This document shows, piece by piece, positions 4,429 to 14,583 of a stretch of DNA of 28,239 nucleotides (its first letter is position 1; each line of letters begins with the position of its first letter). The stretch lies in the IMG/VR virus record IMGVR_UViG_3300034117_000198, positions 1 through 28,239 of that record, one strand, 5' to 3'. The notes below the pieces were generated by a model. That model saw nothing but the letters and a program-made list of their open reading frames with translations. It did not search any database and was not told the origin of the DNA. Source of the DNA: a virus. The position numbers were made by a program, and so were the translations under genes.

Positions 4429-7400
4429 ATGGCAATAAGTAATCTTTTAACAGGTAGGGTAAGGGTAGTATCGCCTAAAAATGTAACATCTGACAGGTAT
4501 CAATTTCTTGATTTATCTCAAGCGGAGCCTAATTTAGGAGTACCACCATTCTCAGCCTCATTATTAACAAATCCAGCTATAATAGTTTCGGATAGTGATG
4601 GTAATAGAGGGTTTGCAAAGAAATTATTTTTAGAAGAGTTTTCTGGCTCGTTTTCAGGCTCATTTCAGGGAGATGGTAGTGGATTAAGAAATGTACCATC
4701 TGTAGTAGCACCATTTATAGCAAGTGGTTCTGCAACTGCATCGTTTAAATCTAACGGACTTAATATAAATACGGATACTATAATTGATGGTAATCTTTAT
4801 GTGAGTAAATCAATTATAGCAGACCAAATTATTGTAAATATAGTTTCATCATCAATAATTTATTCGTCTGGTTCAAACATATTTGGTAATACTGATTCAA
4901 ATATACAACAATTCACAGGTTCTGTACGAATACAAAGTGAATTGATTGGTAATAATATTACTGGTTCTTCTTTTACTGGTTCATTTACTGGTTCATTTTT
5001 TGGAGATGGTAGAGATTTATTTAATTTACCTCAAGCTACTAGATTATCAACTGGTTCTGTAACTGCATCAGTTTCTCCTCAATTTGGATTTAAAGTAGAA
5101 TCAATATCGAGTGGTTCTCAATTTACTGGAAGCTTATTTGTAAGTGGTAATGTAACTGCAGATTTTTATTTTGGAGATGGTTCTAATTTATTAAATGTAC
5201 CTTCAACAGTAGCACCTAGAATTGCTAGTGGTAGTGTAACTGCATCAATCGCACCAAATACTGGATTTATTGTAAATACATTTGCACAATTTGAATTTCC
5301 TGTATCAGCATCAATGTTTAGTGGTAGTGGTAGAGGTTTATTTGATATTCCTCGTTCTGCTCTTACACCCGATGCATTAACGGCAACATTAATAGCAACT
5401 GGTTCTATAACTGCTTCTGTAAGTCCTAATTATGGATTTAAAGTAGAAGCAGGTGAATTGGGTTCTCAGTTTACTGGAAGTTTATTTGTAAGTGGTGGAA
5501 ACATAAGAGTTGAAACTGGTTCGTTTTTTAGTGGTAGTGGTGCTGGTTTAAAAGATATACCTCGTTCAGCATTAACACCGGATGCATTATTAAGTACTTT
5601 AATTACAAGTGGTAGTGTAACTGCATCAGTATCGCCTAATTTAGGATTTCAGGTAATATCCGCAGAAAGTGGTTCAACCTTTACTGGTAGTTTATTTGTA
5701 AGTGGGGGTATTGAAATAAATTCTGGGTCATCTTATTCTGGTAGTGGAGAACGATTATTTGATATTCCTATTAAAGCATTAAAAGATTTAGACCTTACAA
5801 AAATTAGTAGTGGTAGTGCAACAGCATCTATTAGTCCTGATTTTGGATTTAGAGTAAATACGTTTTCTACATTTAGTGGAAGTATGATAATATCGGCATC
5901 TGCTGTTTATTATACATCGGAATCATTGGATACTGTTTTTAATGTAACGAATGGTGCCGATATTGCATATTCATTTACTGGAGCGGTTAGTGGACCTAAC
6001 CCAGCTATAAATTTGGTAAGGGGTATAACATATACATTTAATATTAATGCAGCTGGGCAACCATTTTGGATAAAAACAGCAATTTCAACAGGTGGTGGTG
6101 ATTTATATAATACTGGTGTAACAAATAATGGAGCTGAAGTAGGTACGATTACATTCACTGTTCCGAATGATGCACCAAATATATTATATTATAACTCCGA
6201 ATATCAGGCATCAATGCGTGGTACTATTAATATAGTTGATAGTCTTGTAAAAAGACCAGCAGAATTAAAAGTAATAGGATATACTAATATTATAGGTGAT
6301 ACTAGTATAACGGGTAGTTTGCTTGTTAAAGATGGCGCAACATTTAAATATTGGGTATCGGCATCGGTGTTTACTGGTAGTGGTGCTGGATTATATGATA
6401 TTCCTCGTTCTGCATTTACTGGAGATTCAACTAGAATAGCAAGTGGTAGTATAACAGCATCTGTGAGTCCTGATTATGGATTTAGAGTTGAAACTGATTT
6501 AAGTGGGTCTACTAGATATGGTTCTCAATTTACTGGTAGTGTAGATGTAAGTGCAAGTTTTAGAGCACGTGATATAATTACTAATCTTATTTTTGCTAAT
6601 GAAATTAGTGGGTCTGATATTAGTGGTTCATTTCAAGGAGATGGTAGTAGATTAACAAATATTAACGTACCACCGCAAGTAGCAACAAAAATTGTTTCTG
6701 GTTCAGTAACTGCATCGGTTGCACCTAATATTGGATTTGTAGTTACATCTACCGAATTGGGTTCTACTTTATTAGGTCGTGTTGGAATTAGCGGAAGTTT
6801 ATTTGTAAGTGGTAATATAGAACTAAATTCAGGTTCAGCATTTTCTGGTAGTGGGGCTAATTTATTTAATATACCTAGAACAGCTTTAACGCCCGATGCA
6901 TTATTATCAACATTTATAGCATCTGGTAGTGTAACTGCATCAGTATCACCTAACTTTGGATTTAAAATAGAATCTACTGAAAAGGGTACACAATTTAGTG
7001 GAAGTTTATTTGTAAGTGGAGCTGGAATATTTTTAAATTCTGGTTCATTTAGTGGTAGTGGTAAAAATTTATTTGATATTCCAATTTCAGCACTTTCTAA
7101 TTTAGATACATCAAAAATATTTAGTGGTAGTGTAACTGCATCAGTTTCTCCAAATAGAGGATTTGAAGTATTTGCAGCTACATCAAATTTTTCTGGTTCA
7201 ATATCGGCATCTGTATTTAGTGGTAGTGGTGCTGGATTAACAAATATTCCATTTTCAGCACTTTCACAAGAATTATTCAGAATCACAAGTGGTAGTGTAA
7301 CTGCATCAGTATCTCCTGATACTGGATTTAAAGTAGAATCATCAGAAATTGGTTCTCAATTTACAGGTTCATTATTTGTTAGTGGTGGATACATTAGAGT

Positions 7401-10400
7401 TGAAACCGGCTCATTCTTCTCTGGTTCTGGTGCTGGATTAAATAATATTCCTCGTTCTGCTTTAACTTTAGATGCATTAATATCGACTGAAATTAAAAGT
7501 GGAAGTGTAACTGCATCTGTTTCACCTGATGATGGATTTAGAGTAATTTCAATAGAAAGTGGTTCTCAATTTAGTGGAAGTTTATTTGTAAGTGGAGGAT
7601 ATATTAGAGTAGAGACTGGTTCATTCTTTAGTGGTAGTGGTGCTGGGTTATCTGATATTCCTGAATCCGCTCTATCATTTAAAATTAATAGAATTGCAAG
7701 TGGTTCGGCAACGGCATCTATATCACCCGATTATGGTTTTAGAGTAAACACATTTTCTGCAATTAGTGGAAGTTTTATAGTATCATCTTCAGCTAGAGAA
7801 TTGGCTTATAGTGATATAGATACTGTATTTAACGTAACAAATGATGGTAGTAATTCGTATATTATAAGCAATAGGTTAGTAAGTGGTTCAAATCCAACTT
7901 TAACTTTAGTAAGAAATGTAAATTATACATTTAACGTAAATGCTTCTGGGCATCCATTCTTAATTAAAACACAAAGTGGACCAGGCCCTAGTAACACATA
8001 CACTACTTGGGTAACTAATAATGGTGATGATGTTGGTGTTATAACATTTTTGGTTTCTGGAAGTGCACCTGATACATTATACTATAATTGTCAGTTTCAT
8101 GGAAGTATGGCAGGTACTATTAATGTAGTAGATGCATTATATGTTCCAGCTGAAATAAAATTAATTGGTGAAACAAAAGTAGAAGGTAATGTAACCGCTT
8201 CAATGTTTAGTGGTAGTGGTAAAGGATTATTTGATATACCACAATCTGCGATATCCGGTGATACCGTTAGAATTGCTAGTGGTAGTGTAACCGCATCTGT
8301 ATCTCCTAATTTTGGATTTAGAGTAGCATCATTTGTAAGCGGTTCTGATTTTAGTGGAAGTATTAGAATAGATTCATCATCTTTCATATATTCATTAGGA
8401 ACTTATTTAAGAGAAATTCCTAGAGCAGCATTAACCGAAGATGCATTAGTTTCATCGGAAATTAAATCCGGCTCAGTAACGGCGTCTGTAAGTCCTGATT
8501 TTGGGTTTAGAGTAACAAGTCCATTCTCATCTTCAATTGATGAATCTGGTTCATTTACTACACAAATTGGTTCTAGATTTACTGGTTCAATTTCTATAAG
8601 TGGTAGTTTATTTGTAAATGATACAAGTGGTGGTTTATTTATAGAATCATCTTCATTCATATATGGCGTTGGTACTTATTTAAGAAATATCCCTCGTTCA
8701 GCATTGACAGAAGATGCGTTAATATCTACTGAAATTAAAAGTGGTAGTGTAACCGCATCGGTAAGTCCTGATTTTGGATTTAGAGTAATAGCAACTGATA
8801 TAGTTAGTGGTTCTATTTTTGGTTCTCAATTTACAGGTTCCGTTGATGTAAGTGGAAGTATTAGAGCATTTACATTTTTAGGAGATGGTTCTCAATTAAC
8901 AAATGTAGTAGCTGCAGCATCTCCATTAATAGCAAGTGGTTCGGCAACGGCTTCGGTAGCAAGTGGTGATACTTTTATAGTAACAACTGGAGCAACTGGT
9001 TCTGGTTTGGATTTTCAAATTGGTACTCGTATAACGGGTAGTGTGGATATTAGTGGTAGTTTAAAATCACAATTCTTTGTTGGTGATGGTAGATTTATTA
9101 GTAACGTACAAGCAGCAGCTGCACCATTCATTGGTAGTGGTTCTGCAACAGCATCAGTTCAAAGCGGTGATTCCTTTGTAGTAACAACTGGAGCAACTGG
9201 TTCGGCCATTGGTTCTAGATTTACGGGTTCAATTGACGTAAGTGGTAGTGTTAGAGCATTCACATTTATTGGAGATGGTTCTCAACTAATAAATGTACAA
9301 GCATCAGCAGCACCTTTAATAGCAAGTGGTTCAGCAACTGCATCTGTACAAAGTGGAATACAATTTATTGTAACAACAAAGGGAAATTTCTCTACTGTAG
9401 GTTCAAACTCTGGCTCTTATTATGGTTCTGTATTTACTGGTTCTGTAATTATTAGTGGGTCAATATCAGCATCTCGTTACGATGGAGATGGTGGTGGATT
9501 ATTTAATATACCGGCATCAGCACTTGAAGATTTACAATTAGATAGAATCCAATCTGGTTCTGGTAGAGCAATTATAGACCCAGAAAAATTAGATGTAAAC
9601 GTACCAATAACAGCAGCACTTTATATAGGTGATGGTGGTGGGTTATTTAATATTCCTGCAAACGCATTGCAAGACCTTAAATTAGATAGAATCATATCTG
9701 GTTCTGTTCAGGGTGTAATATCACCAAACAAAGGATTAGAAGTTAATACATCTGTTAGAATATTCTCTGGTTCATTGACTGTGAGTGGTTCGGTGTTTGT
9801 TAGTGGTGGAAATGTTATAGTAGCAAGTGGTTCAACATTTATTGGAGATGGTAGTGGTTTGACAAATATTAGTTTAGCAAATATATCATTTGAAACATTT
9901 ATATTAAAGAGTGGTTCATTCACCGCATCAATTTCTCCTGATAAAGGATTTGTTGTAAACGCATCGGCTAGTATTTGGGGAGATGTATATGTTGGAAATA
10001 ATCTAAGAGCTAATAAAATAACTGGAAGTACTTCAATATATTCTCCAATAGTAAGTGGGGGTTTATTGGGTACATACACATATCAGGGAAATGGACCAAC
10101 TGCAAGTATTGATTACGATATTTTAAGATATGACCCAACTAGAGGACATTATATTCCTCAACCTGAAACTTCATTAACTGAAACAGTATCATTTAATAAT
10201 GTTAGTAGTTTAACAATTGTACACAATTTGGGAATTAGATACCCAATGGTTCAGGTTTACGCAACTGGTTCGGAAGACCAAATTTTACCTGGCACAATAA
10301 AATCGATTGATGATGATACTATTCAAATTCTATTTAGTGGATTGACTAGTGGACATGCCGTAATTGGTAGTGGTGGTAGTTTAATAAACGGAAGTATACC

Positions 10401-13400
10401 TGGTGATAGAGTTATTGGTTCTGTACTTTCATCATCATATGCATTTATCGCAGAAACTGCAAGAAGTGTTACTGGATTTGATTCGGCATCATTATCAGCA
10501 TTAACTGATATTCAAAACTTAGTTAGAAATTCACAAACATCTTCAATGAGTGTGGCGTTTGCAGTTAATTCAACATTCGCACAAACTGCATCTTATGTAG
10601 CTAACTTAGGTGAATTGGATTTGACTAACTATGTTAAAAATTCAGTAACATCTTCAATGACTGTTGGTACGGCATCTTTAGCAATTACCGCATCATACGC
10701 ATTATTTGCACAAAACGCATCGAATGTAGATACAACAAACTTTATACAAAAAACACAAACAGCATCAATGTTTGTTGGTACTGCTTCATTAGCATACACA
10801 GCATCTTACGCAATGTTTGCATTATCTTCTGGAAATACTGATACGGCATCTTTCTTACAAATTAATAAAGACCAAACAATTAACGCATCGCTTACAATTA
10901 GTGGTAGTATTGGTGTTAGTGGTAGTATAAGAATAGGTACATTAGCATCTGGTTCTTCTGATAATGTAGTTGTTTGGAATAGTGCAACAAAAATATTAGA
11001 AACACGAAGTGTAGCAGGTGTGCAAGGTTCTTCTGGCTCAGCCGGTTCGGCGGGTACATCTGGAACTGAAGGTTCGGCAGGTTCATCGGGAACTTCTGGA
11101 ACTTCTGGAACGGAAGGGTCGGCAGGTACTTCAGGAACTTCTGGTACAAGTGGTAGTGAGGGTTCGTCTGGAACTTCTGGAACGGAGGGTTCAGCAGGTA
11201 CTTCAGGAACTTCAGGAACTTCTGGTACGGAAGGTTCAGCAGGTACTTCAGGTACTTCAGGTACTTCTGGCACATCGGGAACAACTGGTAGTGAAGGTAC
11301 ATCAGGAACTTCTGGAACATCTGGCTCTACGGGTAGTGAAGGTACATCGGGAACTTCTGGAACAGCCGGTAGTAGTGGTACATCAGGAACTTCTGGTACA
11401 TCGGGAACATCTGGAACAAGCGGTACATCAGGAACTTCTGGAACAAGCGGTACTGCTGGTAGTAGTGGCACAAGTGGTTCATCGGGAACTTCTGGAACAA
11501 GTGGTACATCGGGCTCTACTGGTAGTGCAGGTACATCGGGAACTTCTGGTAGTGGGGGTACTTCGGGAACAAGCGGAAGTAGTGGTAGTAGTGGTTCATC
11601 GGGAACTTCTGGAACTACGGGAAGTGAAGGTACTTCAGGAACTTCTGGTTCAACCGGTACGGGAGGTTCATCGGGAACTTCTGGTTCAGCAGGAACTTCT
11701 GGGACGAGAGGAACAAGCGGTAGTGGTGGAACTTCTGGCACAAGCGGAACATCAGGTACAAGTGGTGGAGAAGGTTCTTCTGGAACAAGCGGTAGTGGTG
11801 GTTCATCTGGTACGGGAGGTTCTTCTGGAACTTCAGGCTCAGCAGGAACTTCAGGAACTTCTGGAACAAGTGGTAGTGATGGTATAAGTGGTACATCGGG
11901 AACTTCTGGAACGAGTGGTAGTAGTGGTACATCTGGTTCAACGGGTTCTTCTGGAACTTCTGGCACATCGGGAACTTCTGGCTCAACTGGTTCAGCAGGT
12001 ACATCGGGAACTTCTGGAATTGATGGCACATCGGGAACTTCTGGCACAAGCGGCACATCAGGAACTTCAGGTACAACGGGAAGTGATGGAACGTCTGGAA
12101 CAAGTGGTAGTGATGGTTCATCGGGAACTTCTGGTACAAGTGGCACATCAGGAACTTCAGGTACAACGGGAAGTGAAGGAACGTCTGGAACAAGCGGTAC
12201 ATCCGGAACAAGCGGTAGTGATGGAACTTCTGGAACAAGTGGTTCAACTGGTAGTGATGGTACAAGCGGTACGAGTGGTATTGGTACTGATGGAACGTCT
12301 GGAACAAGTGGTACATCAGGAACAAGCGGTACTGATGGAACTTCAGGAACAAGCGGAATAAGTGGTAGTGATGGAACTTCAGGAACAAGTGGTATAAATG
12401 GAACGGATGGTACATCGGGAACTTCTGGTTCTGATGGAACTTCTGGAACAAGTGGTAGTGATGGAACTTCAGGAACTTCTGGTACAAATGGTAGTGAGGG
12501 AACTTCTGGAACATCAGGTACGTCAGGCTCCAACGGAACATCGGGCACAAGTGGTAGTAATGGCACAAGCGGTACATCGGGAACTTCTGGAACAAGTGGT
12601 ATTGGTACTGATGGAACTTCAGGAACAAGCGGAATAAATGGAACGGATGGTACATCGGGAACTTCTGGTTCTGATGGAACTTCTGGAACGTCTGGTAGTA
12701 GTGGTACAAGCGGTACAAGTGGCACATCAGGAACTTCTGGTTTAGATGGAACATTCTTTGGTAGTAGTGGTACTTCGGGAACTTCTGGTACAAGTGGTTC
12801 AAGCGGTACAAGCGGTACATCAGGAACTTCTGGTTTAGATGGGACATATTTTGGTAGTAGTGGTACGAGTGGTATTGGTACTGATGGAACTTCGGGAACT
12901 TCTGGTACAAGTGGAATCAATGGTAGTGATGGAACTTCTGGAACAAGTGGAATCAATGGTAGTGATGGAACGTCAGGAACTTCTGGTTTAGATGGAACAT
13001 TTTTTGGTAGTAATGGAACAAGTGGAGAGAATGGTACTTCAGGTACTTCTGGAGCAGGTACTTCGGGAACATCTGGTACAAGCGGTACATCAGGAACTTC
13101 TGGTTTAGATGGGACATATTTTGGTAGTAGTGGTACAAGTGGAGAGAATGGTACTTCAGGAACTTCTGGAGCTGGAACTTCTGGCACATCGGGAACTTCG
13201 GGTACTTCAGGAACGTCTGGTATAGATGGAACATATTTTGGTTCATCTGGAACTTCTGGAAGTGATGGAACTTCGGGAACGTCTGGAGCAGGTACGTCTG
13301 GAACTTCTGGTATGGATGGAACATCAGGAACTTCTGGTTTAGATGGTACATATTTTGGTAGTAGTGGTACTAGTGGAGAAAGTGGTTCATCGGGAACTTC

Positions 13401-14583
13401 TGGAGAGAGTGGTTCATCAGGAACTTCTGGAGAAAGTGGTTCATCCGGAACTTCAGGAACTTCTGGATTGGATGGTACACTATTTGGAAGTAGTGGTACT
13501 TCAGGAACTTCTGGTACAAGTGGAAGTAGTGGAACTTCTGGTACATCAGGAACTTCTGGTTCTTCTGGATTGAATGGTACAATGTTTGGTTCTTCAGGAA
13601 CTTCTGGTACATCCGGAACTTCTGGAATAAGTGGTACATCAGGAACGTCTGGTACAAGCGGTACGTCTGGGACGTCTGGATTGGATGGTACATTATTTGG
13701 TTCATCGGGTACTTCTGGAGTTAGTGGTACATCGGGAACGTCAGGTTCTTCTGGTACAAGTGGAACTTCGGGTACATCAGGAACTTCTGGAGTGAATGGT
13801 ACAATGTTTGGAAGCAGTGGAACTTCTGGAGCACAAGGAACTGGTGGGAGTGGAGGTTCTTCTGGTACTAGTGGTACATCATTTTATGGAGTTACATCAG
13901 GAACTTCCGGAACATCAGGAATTAGTGGTACTAACGGTTTAGCTGGTACTTCTGGTACAAACGCTCCGGGATTTTCATCGGGAACTTCTGGTACATCTGG
14001 GCAAACTGGTACAAGCGGAACAAGTGGTACAAACGCTCCGGGATTTTCTTCTGGAACATCAGGAACTTCTGGATTAACTGGAACATCAGGAACGTCCGCA
14101 CCTGGAATAACTTCTGGAACGTCTGGAACATCTGGATTTCAATTAACTGGTACAACTAATAATGGTTTACTTACATATGTTGATACACCTATTGGAGTTC
14201 AAGTAGAATCTGGAATATTATTTGATGGAACTACTTTATCGGTAACCGGTAATGTAGCATCTACAACATATAGAGAAACATATTCAAATCAAGGAACTGG
14301 TGGAAGCGTAACATTAGATTTATCTACGGCAAATAACTTTAGAAGACAATTTAATGGTACTGCAACAATATCATTCTCAAATGCACCAGCATCAAATGCA
14401 TTTGGATTTACTTTAGTAGTTGTAAATGCTGGGGCCTTTTCTATAACATGGCCTGTTAATGTTGATTGGGCAGGTGGAAGTGCACCATTATTAACATCGT
14501 CTGGAACTGATGTTTTAGCGTTCTATACTTATGATAATGGTACAACCTATTTAGGATTCACAACTGGTAAAAATTTAAGTTAA
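4429..14583 (+). CDS. Giant modular tail fibre protein with cupredoxin-like domains and collagen-like shaft (3384 aa)
   Basis: Residues about 70-1880 are a chain of roughly 22 modules, each with a GSGAGLxDIPRSAL or GDGSxLxN segment, a SGSVTASVSPxxGF segment and a GSQFTGSLFVSG segment, as in fibres of marine T4-like phages. Two cupredoxin-like domains are set into it (residues 501-604 and 1129-1235). Residues about 1893-1990 form a small beta domain (VSFNNVSSLTIVHNLGIRYP). TASYALFA-type repeats follow, then a Gly-Thr-Ser collagen-like shaft (2197-3236). The end is a beta domain with TLDLSTANNF, SFSNAPAS, ITWPVNVDWAGG and the ending YLGFTTGKNLS, a common C-terminal fibre domain. There is no S74 domain. 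The protein has a single cysteine (1221). The likely role is a very long host-contact fibre or whisker; receptor and attachment site are unknown. No Shine-Dalgarno sequence precedes the ATG. Confidence 0.8.
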   Translation: MAISNLLTGRVRVVSPKNVTSDRYQFLDLSQAEPNLGVPPFSASLLTNPAIIVSDSDGNRGFAKKLFLEEFSGSFSGSFQGDGSGLRNVPSVVAPFIASGSATASFKSNGLNINTDTIIDGNLYVSKSIIADQIIVNIVSSSIIYSSGSNIFGNTDSNIQQFTGSVRIQSELIGNNITGSSFTGSFTGSFFGDGRDLFNLPQATRLSTGSVTASVSPQFGFKVESISSGSQFTGSLFVSGNVTADFYFGDGSNLLNVPSTVAPRIASGSVTASIAPNTGFIVNTFAQFEFPVSASMFSGSGRGLFDIPRSALTPDALTATLIATGSITASVSPNYGFKVEAGELGSQFTGSLFVSGGNIRVETGSFFSGSGAGLKDIPRSALTPDALLSTLITSGSVTASVSPNLGFQVISAESGSTFTGSLFVSGGIEINSGSSYSGSGERLFDIPIKALKDLDLTKISSGSATASISPDFGFRVNTFSTFSGSMIISASAVYYTSESLDTVFNVTNGADIAYSFTGAVSGPNPAINLVRGITYTFNINAAGQPFWIKTAISTGGGDLYNTGVTNNGAEVGTITFTVPNDAPNILYYNSEYQASMRGTINIVDSLVKRPAELKVIGYTNIIGDTSITGSLLVKDGATFKYWVSASVFTGSGAGLYDIPRSAFTGDSTRIASGSITASVSPDYGFRVETDLSGSTRYGSQFTGSVDVSASFRARDIITNLIFANEISGSDISGSFQGDGSRLTNINVPPQVATKIVSGSVTASVAPNIGFVVTSTELGSTLLGRVGISGSLFVSGNIELNSGSAFSGSGANLFNIPRTALTPDALLSTFIASGSVTASVSPNFGFKIESTEKGTQFSGSLFVSGAGIFLNSGSFSGSGKNLFDIPISALSNLDTSKIFSGSVTASVSPNRGFEVFAATSNFSGSISASVFSGSGAGLTNIPFSALSQELFRITSGSVTASVSPDTGFKVESSEIGSQFTGSLFVSGGYIRVETGSFFSGSGAGLNNIPRSALTLDALISTEIKSGSVTASVSPDDGFRVISIESGSQFSGSLFVSGGYIRVETGSFFSGSGAGLSDIPESALSFKINRIASGSATASISPDYGFRVNTFSAISGSFIVSSSARELAYSDIDTVFNVTNDGSNSYIISNRLVSGSNPTLTLVRNVNYTFNVNASGHPFLIKTQSGPGPSNTYTTWVTNNGDDVGVITFLVSGSAPDTLYYNCQFHGSMAGTINVVDALYVPAEIKLIGETKVEGNVTASMFSGSGKGLFDIPQSAISGDTVRIASGSVTASVSPNFGFRVASFVSGSDFSGSIRIDSSSFIYSLGTYLREIPRAALTEDALVSSEIKSGSVTASVSPDFGFRVTSPFSSSIDESGSFTTQIGSRFTGSISISGSLFVNDTSGGLFIESSSFIYGVGTYLRNIPRSALTEDALISTEIKSGSVTASVSPDFGFRVIATDIVSGSIFGSQFTGSVDVSGSIRAFTFLGDGSQLTNVVAAASPLIASGSATASVASGDTFIVTTGATGSGLDFQIGTRITGSVDISGSLKSQFFVGDGRFISNVQAAAAPFIGSGSATASVQSGDSFVVTTGATGSAIGSRFTGSIDVSGSVRAFTFIGDGSQLINVQASAAPLIASGSATASVQSGIQFIVTTKGNFSTVGSNSGSYYGSVFTGSVIISGSISASRYDGDGGGLFNIPASALEDLQLDRIQSGSGRAIIDPEKLDVNVPITAALYIGDGGGLFNIPANALQDLKLDRIISGSVQGVISPNKGLEVNTSVRIFSGSLTVSGSVFVSGGNVIVASGSTFIGDGSGLTNISLANISFETFILKSGSFTASISPDKGFVVNASASIWGDVYVGNNLRANKITGSTSIYSPIVSGGLLGTYTYQGNGPTASIDYDILRYDPTRGHYIPQPETSLTETVSFNNVSSLTIVHNLGIRYPMVQVYATGSEDQILPGTIKSIDDDTIQILFSGLTSGHAVIGSGGSLINGSIPGDRVIGSVLSSSYAFIAETARSVTGFDSASLSALTDIQNLVRNSQTSSMSVAFAVNSTFAQTASYVANLGELDLTNYVKNSVTSSMTVGTASLAITASYALFAQNASNVDTTNFIQKTQTASMFVGTASLAYTASYAMFALSSGNTDTASFLQINKDQTINASLTISGSIGVSGSIRIGTLASGSSDNVVVWNSATKILETRSVAGVQGSSGSAGSAGTSGTEGSAGSSGTSGTSGTEGSAGTSGTSGTSGSEGSSGTSGTEGSAGTSGTSGTSGTEGSAGTSGTSGTSGTSGTTGSEGTSGTSGTSGSTGSEGTSGTSGTAGSSGTSGTSGTSGTSGTSGTSGTSGTSGTAGSSGTSGSSGTSGTSGTSGSTGSAGTSGTSGSGGTSGTSGSSGSSGSSGTSGTTGSEGTSGTSGSTGTGGSSGTSGSAGTSGTRGTSGSGGTSGTSGTSGTSGGEGSSGTSGSGGSSGTGGSSGTSGSAGTSGTSGTSGSDGISGTSGTSGTSGSSGTSGSTGSSGTSGTSGTSGSTGSAGTSGTSGIDGTSGTSGTSGTSGTSGTTGSDGTSGTSGSDGSSGTSGTSGTSGTSGTTGSEGTSGTSGTSGTSGSDGTSGTSGSTGSDGTSGTSGIGTDGTSGTSGTSGTSGTDGTSGTSGISGSDGTSGTSGINGTDGTSGTSGSDGTSGTSGSDGTSGTSGTNGSEGTSGTSGTSGSNGTSGTSGSNGTSGTSGTSGTSGIGTDGTSGTSGINGTDGTSGTSGSDGTSGTSGSSGTSGTSGTSGTSGLDGTFFGSSGTSGTSGTSGSSGTSGTSGTSGLDGTYFGSSGTSGIGTDGTSGTSGTSGINGSDGTSGTSGINGSDGTSGTSGLDGTFFGSNGTSGENGTSGTSGAGTSGTSGTSGTSGTSGLDGTYFGSSGTSGENGTSGTSGAGTSGTSGTSGTSGTSGIDGTYFGSSGTSGSDGTSGTSGAGTSGTSGMDGTSGTSGLDGTYFGSSGTSGESGSSGTSGESGSSGTSGESGSSGTSGTSGLDGTLFGSSGTSGTSGTSGSSGTSGTSGTSGSSGLNGTMFGSSGTSGTSGTSGISGTSGTSGTSGTSGTSGLDGTLFGSSGTSGVSGTSGTSGSSGTSGTSGTSGTSGVNGTMFGSSGTSGAQGTGGSGGSSGTSGTSFYGVTSGTSGTSGISGTNGLAGTSGTNAPGFSSGTSGTSGQTGTSGTSGTNAPGFSSGTSGTSGLTGTSGTSAPGITSGTSGTSGFQLTGTTNNGLLTYVDTPIGVQVESGILFDGTTLSVTGNVASTTYRETYSNQGTGGSVTLDLSTANNFRRQFNGTATISFSNAPASNAFGFTLVVVNAGAFSITWPVNVDWAGGSAPLLTSSGTDVLAFYTYDNGTTYLGFTTGKNLS
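5929..6240 (+). other. Cupredoxin-like domain, copy 1, copper ligands lost
   Basis: Residues 501-604 begin LDTVFNVTN and end GTINIVD, aligning along their whole length with copy 2 at 7813-8133. Where copy 2 has a GHPF histidine and a C-x2-H-x2-M loop, this copy has Gln544 (GQPFWI), Ser590, Gln593 and only the methionine (596). The fold is probably kept, but a type 1 copper site is not possible. Confidence 0.65.
7813..8133 (+). other. Cupredoxin-like domain, copy 2, full type 1 copper ligand set
   Basis: Residues 1129-1235 show YTFNVNASGHPF with His1175, then YYNCQFHGSM with Cys1221, His1224 and Met1227, followed by AGTINVVD. The C-x2-H-x2-M ligand loop has the spacing known from amicyanin, and the M-x-G-T-x-x-V ending is like plastocyanin. 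Cys1221 is the only cysteine in the whole 3384-residue protein. Actual copper binding is inference. Confidence 0.65.
12394..12689 (+). repeat. 56-base exact direct repeat inside the collagen-like tract
   Basis: Bases 12394-12449 are identical to 12634-12689, 240 bases (80 codons) apart. The wider stretches 12361-12450 and 12601-12690 differ at only five sites. Identity extends to synonymous positions. Confidence 0.85.
12805..13136 (+). repeat. 62-base exact direct repeat covering a GLDGTYFGSS element
   Basis: Bases 12805-12866 are identical to 13075-13136, 270 bases (90 codons) apart, in frame. The repeat spans the interruption element GLDGTYFGSS and its flanking GTS triplets. Confidence 0.85.

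Follow-up and report, generated by a model that had tools for sequence, protein, structure and literature searches.

The window analysed here, the whole 28,239-base stretch of virus contig IMGVR_UViG_3300034117_000198, carries its structural genes on the + strand and encodes a 3384-residue tail-fibre-like protein of a lake phage that holds two copies of a cupredoxin-type domain. Copy 2 has the complete ligand set of a type 1 (blue) copper site, two His, a Cys and an axial Met; copy 1 has only the Met. Why would a phage fibre keep such a site in one domain beside a relative that is without it? Comparison of sequences indicates that the site in copy 2 is real, that the common ancestor of the two copies very probably had it, and that the ligand set is maintained, or lost, as a unit.

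The two copies are 54% identical over 105 residues (E=2e-36), lie about 630 residues apart and are both set among shaft repeats of one kind. An earlier note on this DNA had named His1175, Cys1221, His1224 and Met1227 as ligands in copy 2, with Gln, Ser, Gln and Met at the same places in copy 1. All of these residues are where it put them, those of copy 1 being Gln544, Ser590, Gln593 and Met596, so that the equatorial His-Cys-His set is present in copy 2 and absent from copy 1. Its residue counts agree as well: the protein contains a single cysteine, Cys1221, and five histidines (1175, 1224, 1907, 1932 and 1976), two of which are ligands.

The earlier note had also proposed a survey of ligand retention in homologous phage domains. 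Many of the loci are from metagenomes that overlap one another, and only distinct sequences were counted. The full His-Cys-His-Met set (HCHM) is found in 150 of 159 distinct phage domains, in 53 of 57 bacterial domains and in all 44 distinct domains of the marine cyanophage protein gp9. The search patterns partly included ligand residues, and this bias was checked by a scan seeded with a metal-free copy, which yielded 25 further distinct domains, all HCHM. In an alignment of 28 members, whose identity to copy 2 goes down to 26%, no member departs from the Cys, the second His or the Met, and the first His is almost as constant. A chance origin of the site is excluded because the same four residues recur in so many phage domains down to such low identity.

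All nine phage exceptions lack both the Cys and the second His, and every one of them has an intact copy beside it. On a domain tree made without the ligand columns (125 columns, 159 rows, many forks unresolved), at least eight changes are needed to explain them. Ser at the Cys position is encoded by TCC, TCA, TCT, AGT and AGC, and these different codons argue for separate origins of the losses. One recent loss is bracketed by the later copies of L193 (HSDM) and L189 (HCHM), which are 86% identical. The proposal that selection for metal binding acts on one copy but not on its partner is thus supported, as far as sequences can tell, by the high retention and by the repeated joint losses. Among 48 multi-copy fibre types, the first copy has lost the site in 7 and a later copy in 2. 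The intact copy is not the second in every case, for in L177 and L193 a later copy has lost the site. Nor was it concluded that at least one copy must stay intact: loss of the site from every copy was seen in 0 fibres, against 0.29 expected by chance, a difference that is not significant.

Table 1. Domain copies, ligand positions and other features of the window, with ligand variants at related loci (ligand strings in the order first His, Cys, second His, Met).
Feature	Residues	Position	Strand	Basis or remark
Copy 1, cupredoxin-type domain without copper ligands	501-605	5929-6243	+	phrog_677, AF2 (AlphaFold2), fold matches
Copy 1 Gln (CAA), replaces first His ligand	544	6058-6060	+	
Copy 1 Ser (TCC), replaces Cys ligand	590	6196-6198	+	
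Copy 1 Gln (CAG), replaces second His ligand	593	6205-6207	+	
Copy 1 Met (ATG), axial position retained	596	6214-6216	+	
Copy 2, cupredoxin-type domain with full H-C-H-M ligand set	1129-1235	7813-8133	+	C-x2-H-x2-M loop
Copy 2 His, first ligand	1175	7951-7953	+	in GHPF motif
Copy 2 Cys	1221	8089-8091	+	sole Cys of the protein
Copy 2 His, second His ligand	1224	8098-8100	+	
Copy 2 Met, axial ligand	1227	8107-8109	+	
Phage exceptions				window QSQM; L015 HDLL; L017 HSDM; L018 QSGM; L047 HSNM; L177 YNNM; L182 HSDA; L193 HSDM; L198 HSTL (distant)
HCHQ examples				L301-L313 and other marine loci, open reading frame after gp9
Fibre-like open reading frame, open at 5' end			+	
Large tail-fibre-like protein, lake phage	3384 in all	4429-14583	+	open reading frame translation
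Small genes between the two fibres			+	
Second fibre	2641 in all		+	Peptidase_S74 chaperone domain at end
Contractile tail sheath gene			+	

The earlier note had described the set in copy 1 as erased. This holds for the ligands but not for the domain around them, where the predicted fold, the conserved non-ligand residues and purifying selection all remain. Across the eight close exceptions, 11 of 32 ligand cells of the alignment are unchanged, compared with 166 of 184 cells at other conserved positions; ligand by ligand, retention is 0/8 for the Cys, 0/8 for the second His, 5/8 for the first His and 6/8 for the Met. The Tyr two residues before the Cys position is kept in 9/9 exceptions. The ratio of nonsynonymous to synonymous substitution rates (pairwise, Nei-Gojobori style, and rough on such short sequences) is 0.22-0.47 for four metal-free copies against an intact relative, and 0.17-0.35 for intact pairs. 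This pattern of conservation indicates that metal-free copies are maintained domains, not decaying ones, in which only the site is lost; copy 1, judging by its model, is probably a metal-free domain that still folds. Cys is replaced by Ser in 7/9 exceptions, and a Glu directly follows the Cys position in 5/9 of them versus 7/150 intact copies (Fisher 1e-4, an indicative value since the rows are not phylogenetically independent). A change from C-Q-x-H to S/N-E-x-D/N/Q is seen at the same spot in the window, L017, L177, L182 and L193, and possibly reflects convergence on a new face, acidic or hydrogen-bonded, instead of random loss.

Both copies match the phage protein family phrog_677 (copy 2, E=8.3e-24; copy 1, E=1.3e-21). 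Copy 2 aligns to profile positions 306-411 of 412, that is, to the C-terminal domain, and the N-terminal ~300 residues of PHROG 677 are unmatched by the window domains, which were scanned as pieces of 127 residues. The AF2 model of copy 2, with nine strands, has a predicted local distance difference test score (pLDDT) of 93.9, and that of copy 1 a pLDDT of 90.9. For copy 2, the best Foldseek matches in the PDB, from E=1e-4, are AcoP, rusticyanin, a copper nitrite reductase domain, an azurin whose loop is shortened to CAAHAAM, plastocyanin and amicyanin. Copy 1 has its best matches to rusticyanin, AcoP, nitrite reductase, multicopper oxidases and plastocyanin. Both copies are therefore predicted to be cupredoxin-fold domains of one family. 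A PDB search with a single sequence gave nothing meaningful. When a profile of the 28 diverse members was run against all PDB sequences, the list was led by copper nitrite reductase (3e-7), auracyanin, amicyanin (1e-4), plastocyanin and rusticyanin, and in the alignment to amicyanin the Cys, His and Met of the C-x2-H-x2-M loop line up gap-free. The Pfam family PF00127 Copper-bind is matched weakly by 8/28 family members (best 9.7e-5) and the NCBIfam amicyanin model by 11/28 (best 1.8e-6), with top scores of ~25 bits against a cut-off of 110.2. The amicyanin likeness of the domain is confined to the loop spacing.

Variation at the axial position points the same way. In marine T4-like cyanophages, the first domain of the large open reading frame directly 3' of gp9 is HCHM or, in 13 distinct examples, HCHQ: only the axial residue changes, from Met to Gln, and His-Cys-His is constant. 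Stellacyanin has Gln as its natural axial ligand, and an axial-only change with a constant His-Cys-His therefore fits a type 1 copper site. The same reading frame often has a second, weakly similar domain without ligands (NATA, NSNY, QATH, HSDH and others).

We propose that the ancestral domain would have carried a complete mononuclear type 1 site, two His, a Cys and an axial Met, on a C-x2-H-x2-M loop of amicyanin length. Copy 2 would have kept this site under selection, and copy 1 would have lost it through Cys to Ser and the change of both His to Gln, with the scaffold kept. The intact domain would take up one copper ion once the particle has left the copper-poor host cytoplasm; loading probably follows release because most virion assembly occurs in that cytoplasm. 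The copper would then staple the Cys/His/Met loop to the first His. The exposed ligand face around the second His would thereby become rigid and present a docking surface at the side of the fibre. Cupredoxins dock through the exposed face around their second His. One docking face per chain would suffice, and extra copies would therefore be free to drop the metal and to serve as spacers or as a face of different shape. Taken as a whole, this account of a site kept in one copy and lost in the other within a copper-stapled binding module seems to us somewhat better than an even bet. That the metal is copper is likely. A structural role for it in docking, as opposed to electron transfer, seems somewhat less likely than not, and is suggested by the place of the domain in fibres, baseplates and bacterial surface lipoproteins.

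Several observations weigh against this proposal. The window copies are matched neither by the cupredoxin families of Pfam, including PF00127, nor by the NCBIfam amicyanin equivalog TIGR02657. The first His, in the GHPF motif, is two positions off in the profile alignment to amicyanin, and the template modelling scores (TM-scores) to solved cupredoxins are moderate, 0.4-0.55 over both models and 0.45-0.55 for copy 2. A Cys-His-Met site could hold zinc or Cu(I) rather than cycling copper, and no evidence in the analysis identifies a receptor or partner for docking. The metal might indeed be another one, such as zinc, or there might be none, the four residues being conserved for packing of the loop. 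Recombinant cupredoxins are able to take up zinc, and phages are assembled in a copper-poor cytoplasm; but the order and spacing of the ligands are exactly those of type 1 copper proteins, a change of Met to Gln alone is tolerated, and packing alone would not predict the coupled loss of Cys and His in every exception with the neighbouring Tyr kept. We regard this explanation as unlikely. The resemblance could also be fortuitous, an immunoglobulin-like (Ig-like) fibre domain that looks like a copper site by chance, or a product of sequencing or assembly error. The moderate fold similarity scores to known cupredoxins and additional weak Pfam matches to Ig-like families would fit such a reading, yet three independent metagenome contigs (L001-L003) carry identical copies of both window domains, the ligands are near-invariant across hundreds of phages and in bacteria, and the profile search is headed by copper proteins. 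This reading is already contradicted by the conservation data and is hardly credible.

Granted copper, its role could be a different one. The centre could trade an electron with a partner on the host surface or in the periplasm and so gate attachment or baseplate firing. The structurally nearest solved proteins are all electron carriers or copper enzymes, and alternation of Met and Gln at the axial position is a known tuner of potential in cupredoxins. On the other hand, the window encodes no redox partner, the domain is single, distant from other centres and placed in shaft-like proteins, and metal-free copies persist, which a wire could not tolerate; such a device seems quite unlikely. Copper borne on the fibre might instead win contact with copper-uptake or copper-binding proteins of the host surface. 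Copper is bound very tightly in type 1 sites, which are buried and would make poor bait; moreover, no host copper receptor is implicated and the evidence on the host itself is mixed. Such a copper Trojan horse would be modelled on the iron 'Ferrojan horse' argued for the HxH-containing fibre of T4 gp37 and for an Alteromonas phage with six HxH motifs (PMC11705849), and the domain is indeed located in exposed tail proteins; the idea nevertheless appears distinctly improbable.

The window pair is one instance of a widespread domain and is not special to this fibre. By tblastn the domain occurs in 345 phage records, nearly all of Synechococcus and Prochlorococcus phages and mostly marine, among them the podoviruses P-SCSP2 and P-GSP1, and among aquatic phages of the T4-like and T7-like kinds it is common in fibres as well as in baseplates. 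In marine cyanophages it forms the C-terminal end of gp9 (PHROG 677), annotated 'baseplate wedge tail fibre connector', whose last ~110 residues are the same domain as the window copies. That protein has ~400 residues and one terminal domain, whereas the window has two internal domains in a much longer shaft protein, and the rest of gp9 is left unmatched by the 127-residue pieces scanned. In contig L043 two open reading frames (2824 and 4305), each with an intact domain, divide the fibre frame between them, reflecting either a frameshift in the contig or a genuinely split gene. The cellular carriers are Bacteroidota and alphaproteobacteria, in which the domain, 34-57% identical, is found in secreted or surface proteins (CHRD or Lipoprotein_15 repeat lipoproteins, collagen-like proteins); there it is often terminal in a lipoprotein with a lipobox, and shaft repeats of the window type are missing. 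In the Bacteroidetes bins L103 and L104, collagen repeats immediately precede the domain, as an echo of the phage fibre layout. Near-identical proteins of the Flavobacteriales/Flavobacteriaceae bins L106 and L107 differ at the ligand Cys, which is Tyr in L107, through either a recent loss or a sequence error. Finally, giant-virus 'beta-sandwich proteins' in BFVD (Pithovirus and Marseillevirus bins; A0A481Z6J5, A0A481YVH3 and others) match the domain model with E ~1e-7.

With the type 1 copper cupredoxins (amicyanin, plastocyanin, rusticyanin, AcoP, azurin, auracyanin and copper nitrite reductase domains), the window domain shares a predicted Greek-key beta sandwich, the order and spacing of His and Cys-x2-His-x2-Met, and the profile and fold matches. 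Unlike them, it lies inside a phage fibre without a signal peptide, has GHPF at the first His, is of low identity and below curated cut-offs, and is paired with a ligand-free copy; its assignment to copper remains a prediction. Like the iron fibres of T4 gp37 (PMC11705849), it builds metal-ligand residues into an exposed tail fibre, but the iron sits on HxH motifs of intertwined trimers, in contrast to a mononuclear copper-type site within a cupredoxin domain. Marine cyanophages also encode plastocyanin, PetE (PMC3037559), likewise a phage-encoded cupredoxin; PetE is a stand-alone photosynthesis gene, whereas the window domain is part of a virion structural protein. One phage protein named PetE, XQU50115.1 of Synechococcus phage S-SCSM2R (L057 1794-2300), fits the profile of the structural phage domain family (E=9e-30), contains the C-x2-H-x2-M loop and gives a weak match to amicyanin rather than plastocyanin. 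Its plastocyanin name is probably wrong and the protein of the structural type, a warning that some phage 'PetE' annotations stand for structural proteins.

Fold and site are classical; what appears to be new is their location in phage tail parts and the switching between copies. The literature searched, which left subscription papers and preprints outside, holds no description of cupredoxin, blue or type 1 copper, or plastocyanin-like domains in phage tails, nor of all-or-none switching between copper-site and site-less copies. To our knowledge, cellular electron carriers and copper enzymes are so far the only proteins in which such a type 1 copper centre is known. The ligand patterns suggest copper binding by the tails of some viruses. 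Should the site be loaded, a bioinorganic centre would be present in the tails of very abundant aquatic phages, phage infectivity would be tied to trace copper, and a clean genetic handle would be at hand because matched versions with and without the copper site exist naturally in the same protein. Most isolated marine cyanomyoviruses have a gp9 connector that ends in a hitherto unannotated domain, and the assignment accounts for this domain as well. A wider view, in which many aquatic T4-like and T7-like virions would be copper proteins whose type 1 centre acts in host contact, through copper- or redox-dependent docking or triggering, and whose lineages switch domains between copper-bearing and metal-free, is speculative and in our opinion rather doubtful.

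Evidence on the host is mixed. The tail sheath is nearest to that of Microcystis phage Mel-JY01 (47.7%) and to those of Flavobacterium phages (46.7%, partial). psbA is absent from 24 related contigs, and tests for enrichment of T4 late promoters and of Bacteroidota promoters were both negative. Gene starts are A-rich, and an obvious Shine-Dalgarno sequence was not seen. Along the large fibre, SGSxTASxSPxxGF shaft repeats with the two cupredoxin-type domains are followed by a Gly-X-Y array and a C-terminal tail, and 23% of its 1124-residue N-terminal piece matches cyanophage baseplate or fibre proteins. The collagen-like Gly-X-Y arrays of both fibres are very long, proline-free and mostly Gly, Ser and Thr, extending over 11017-13806 in the first (residues 2197-3126) and over residues 228-710 in the second.

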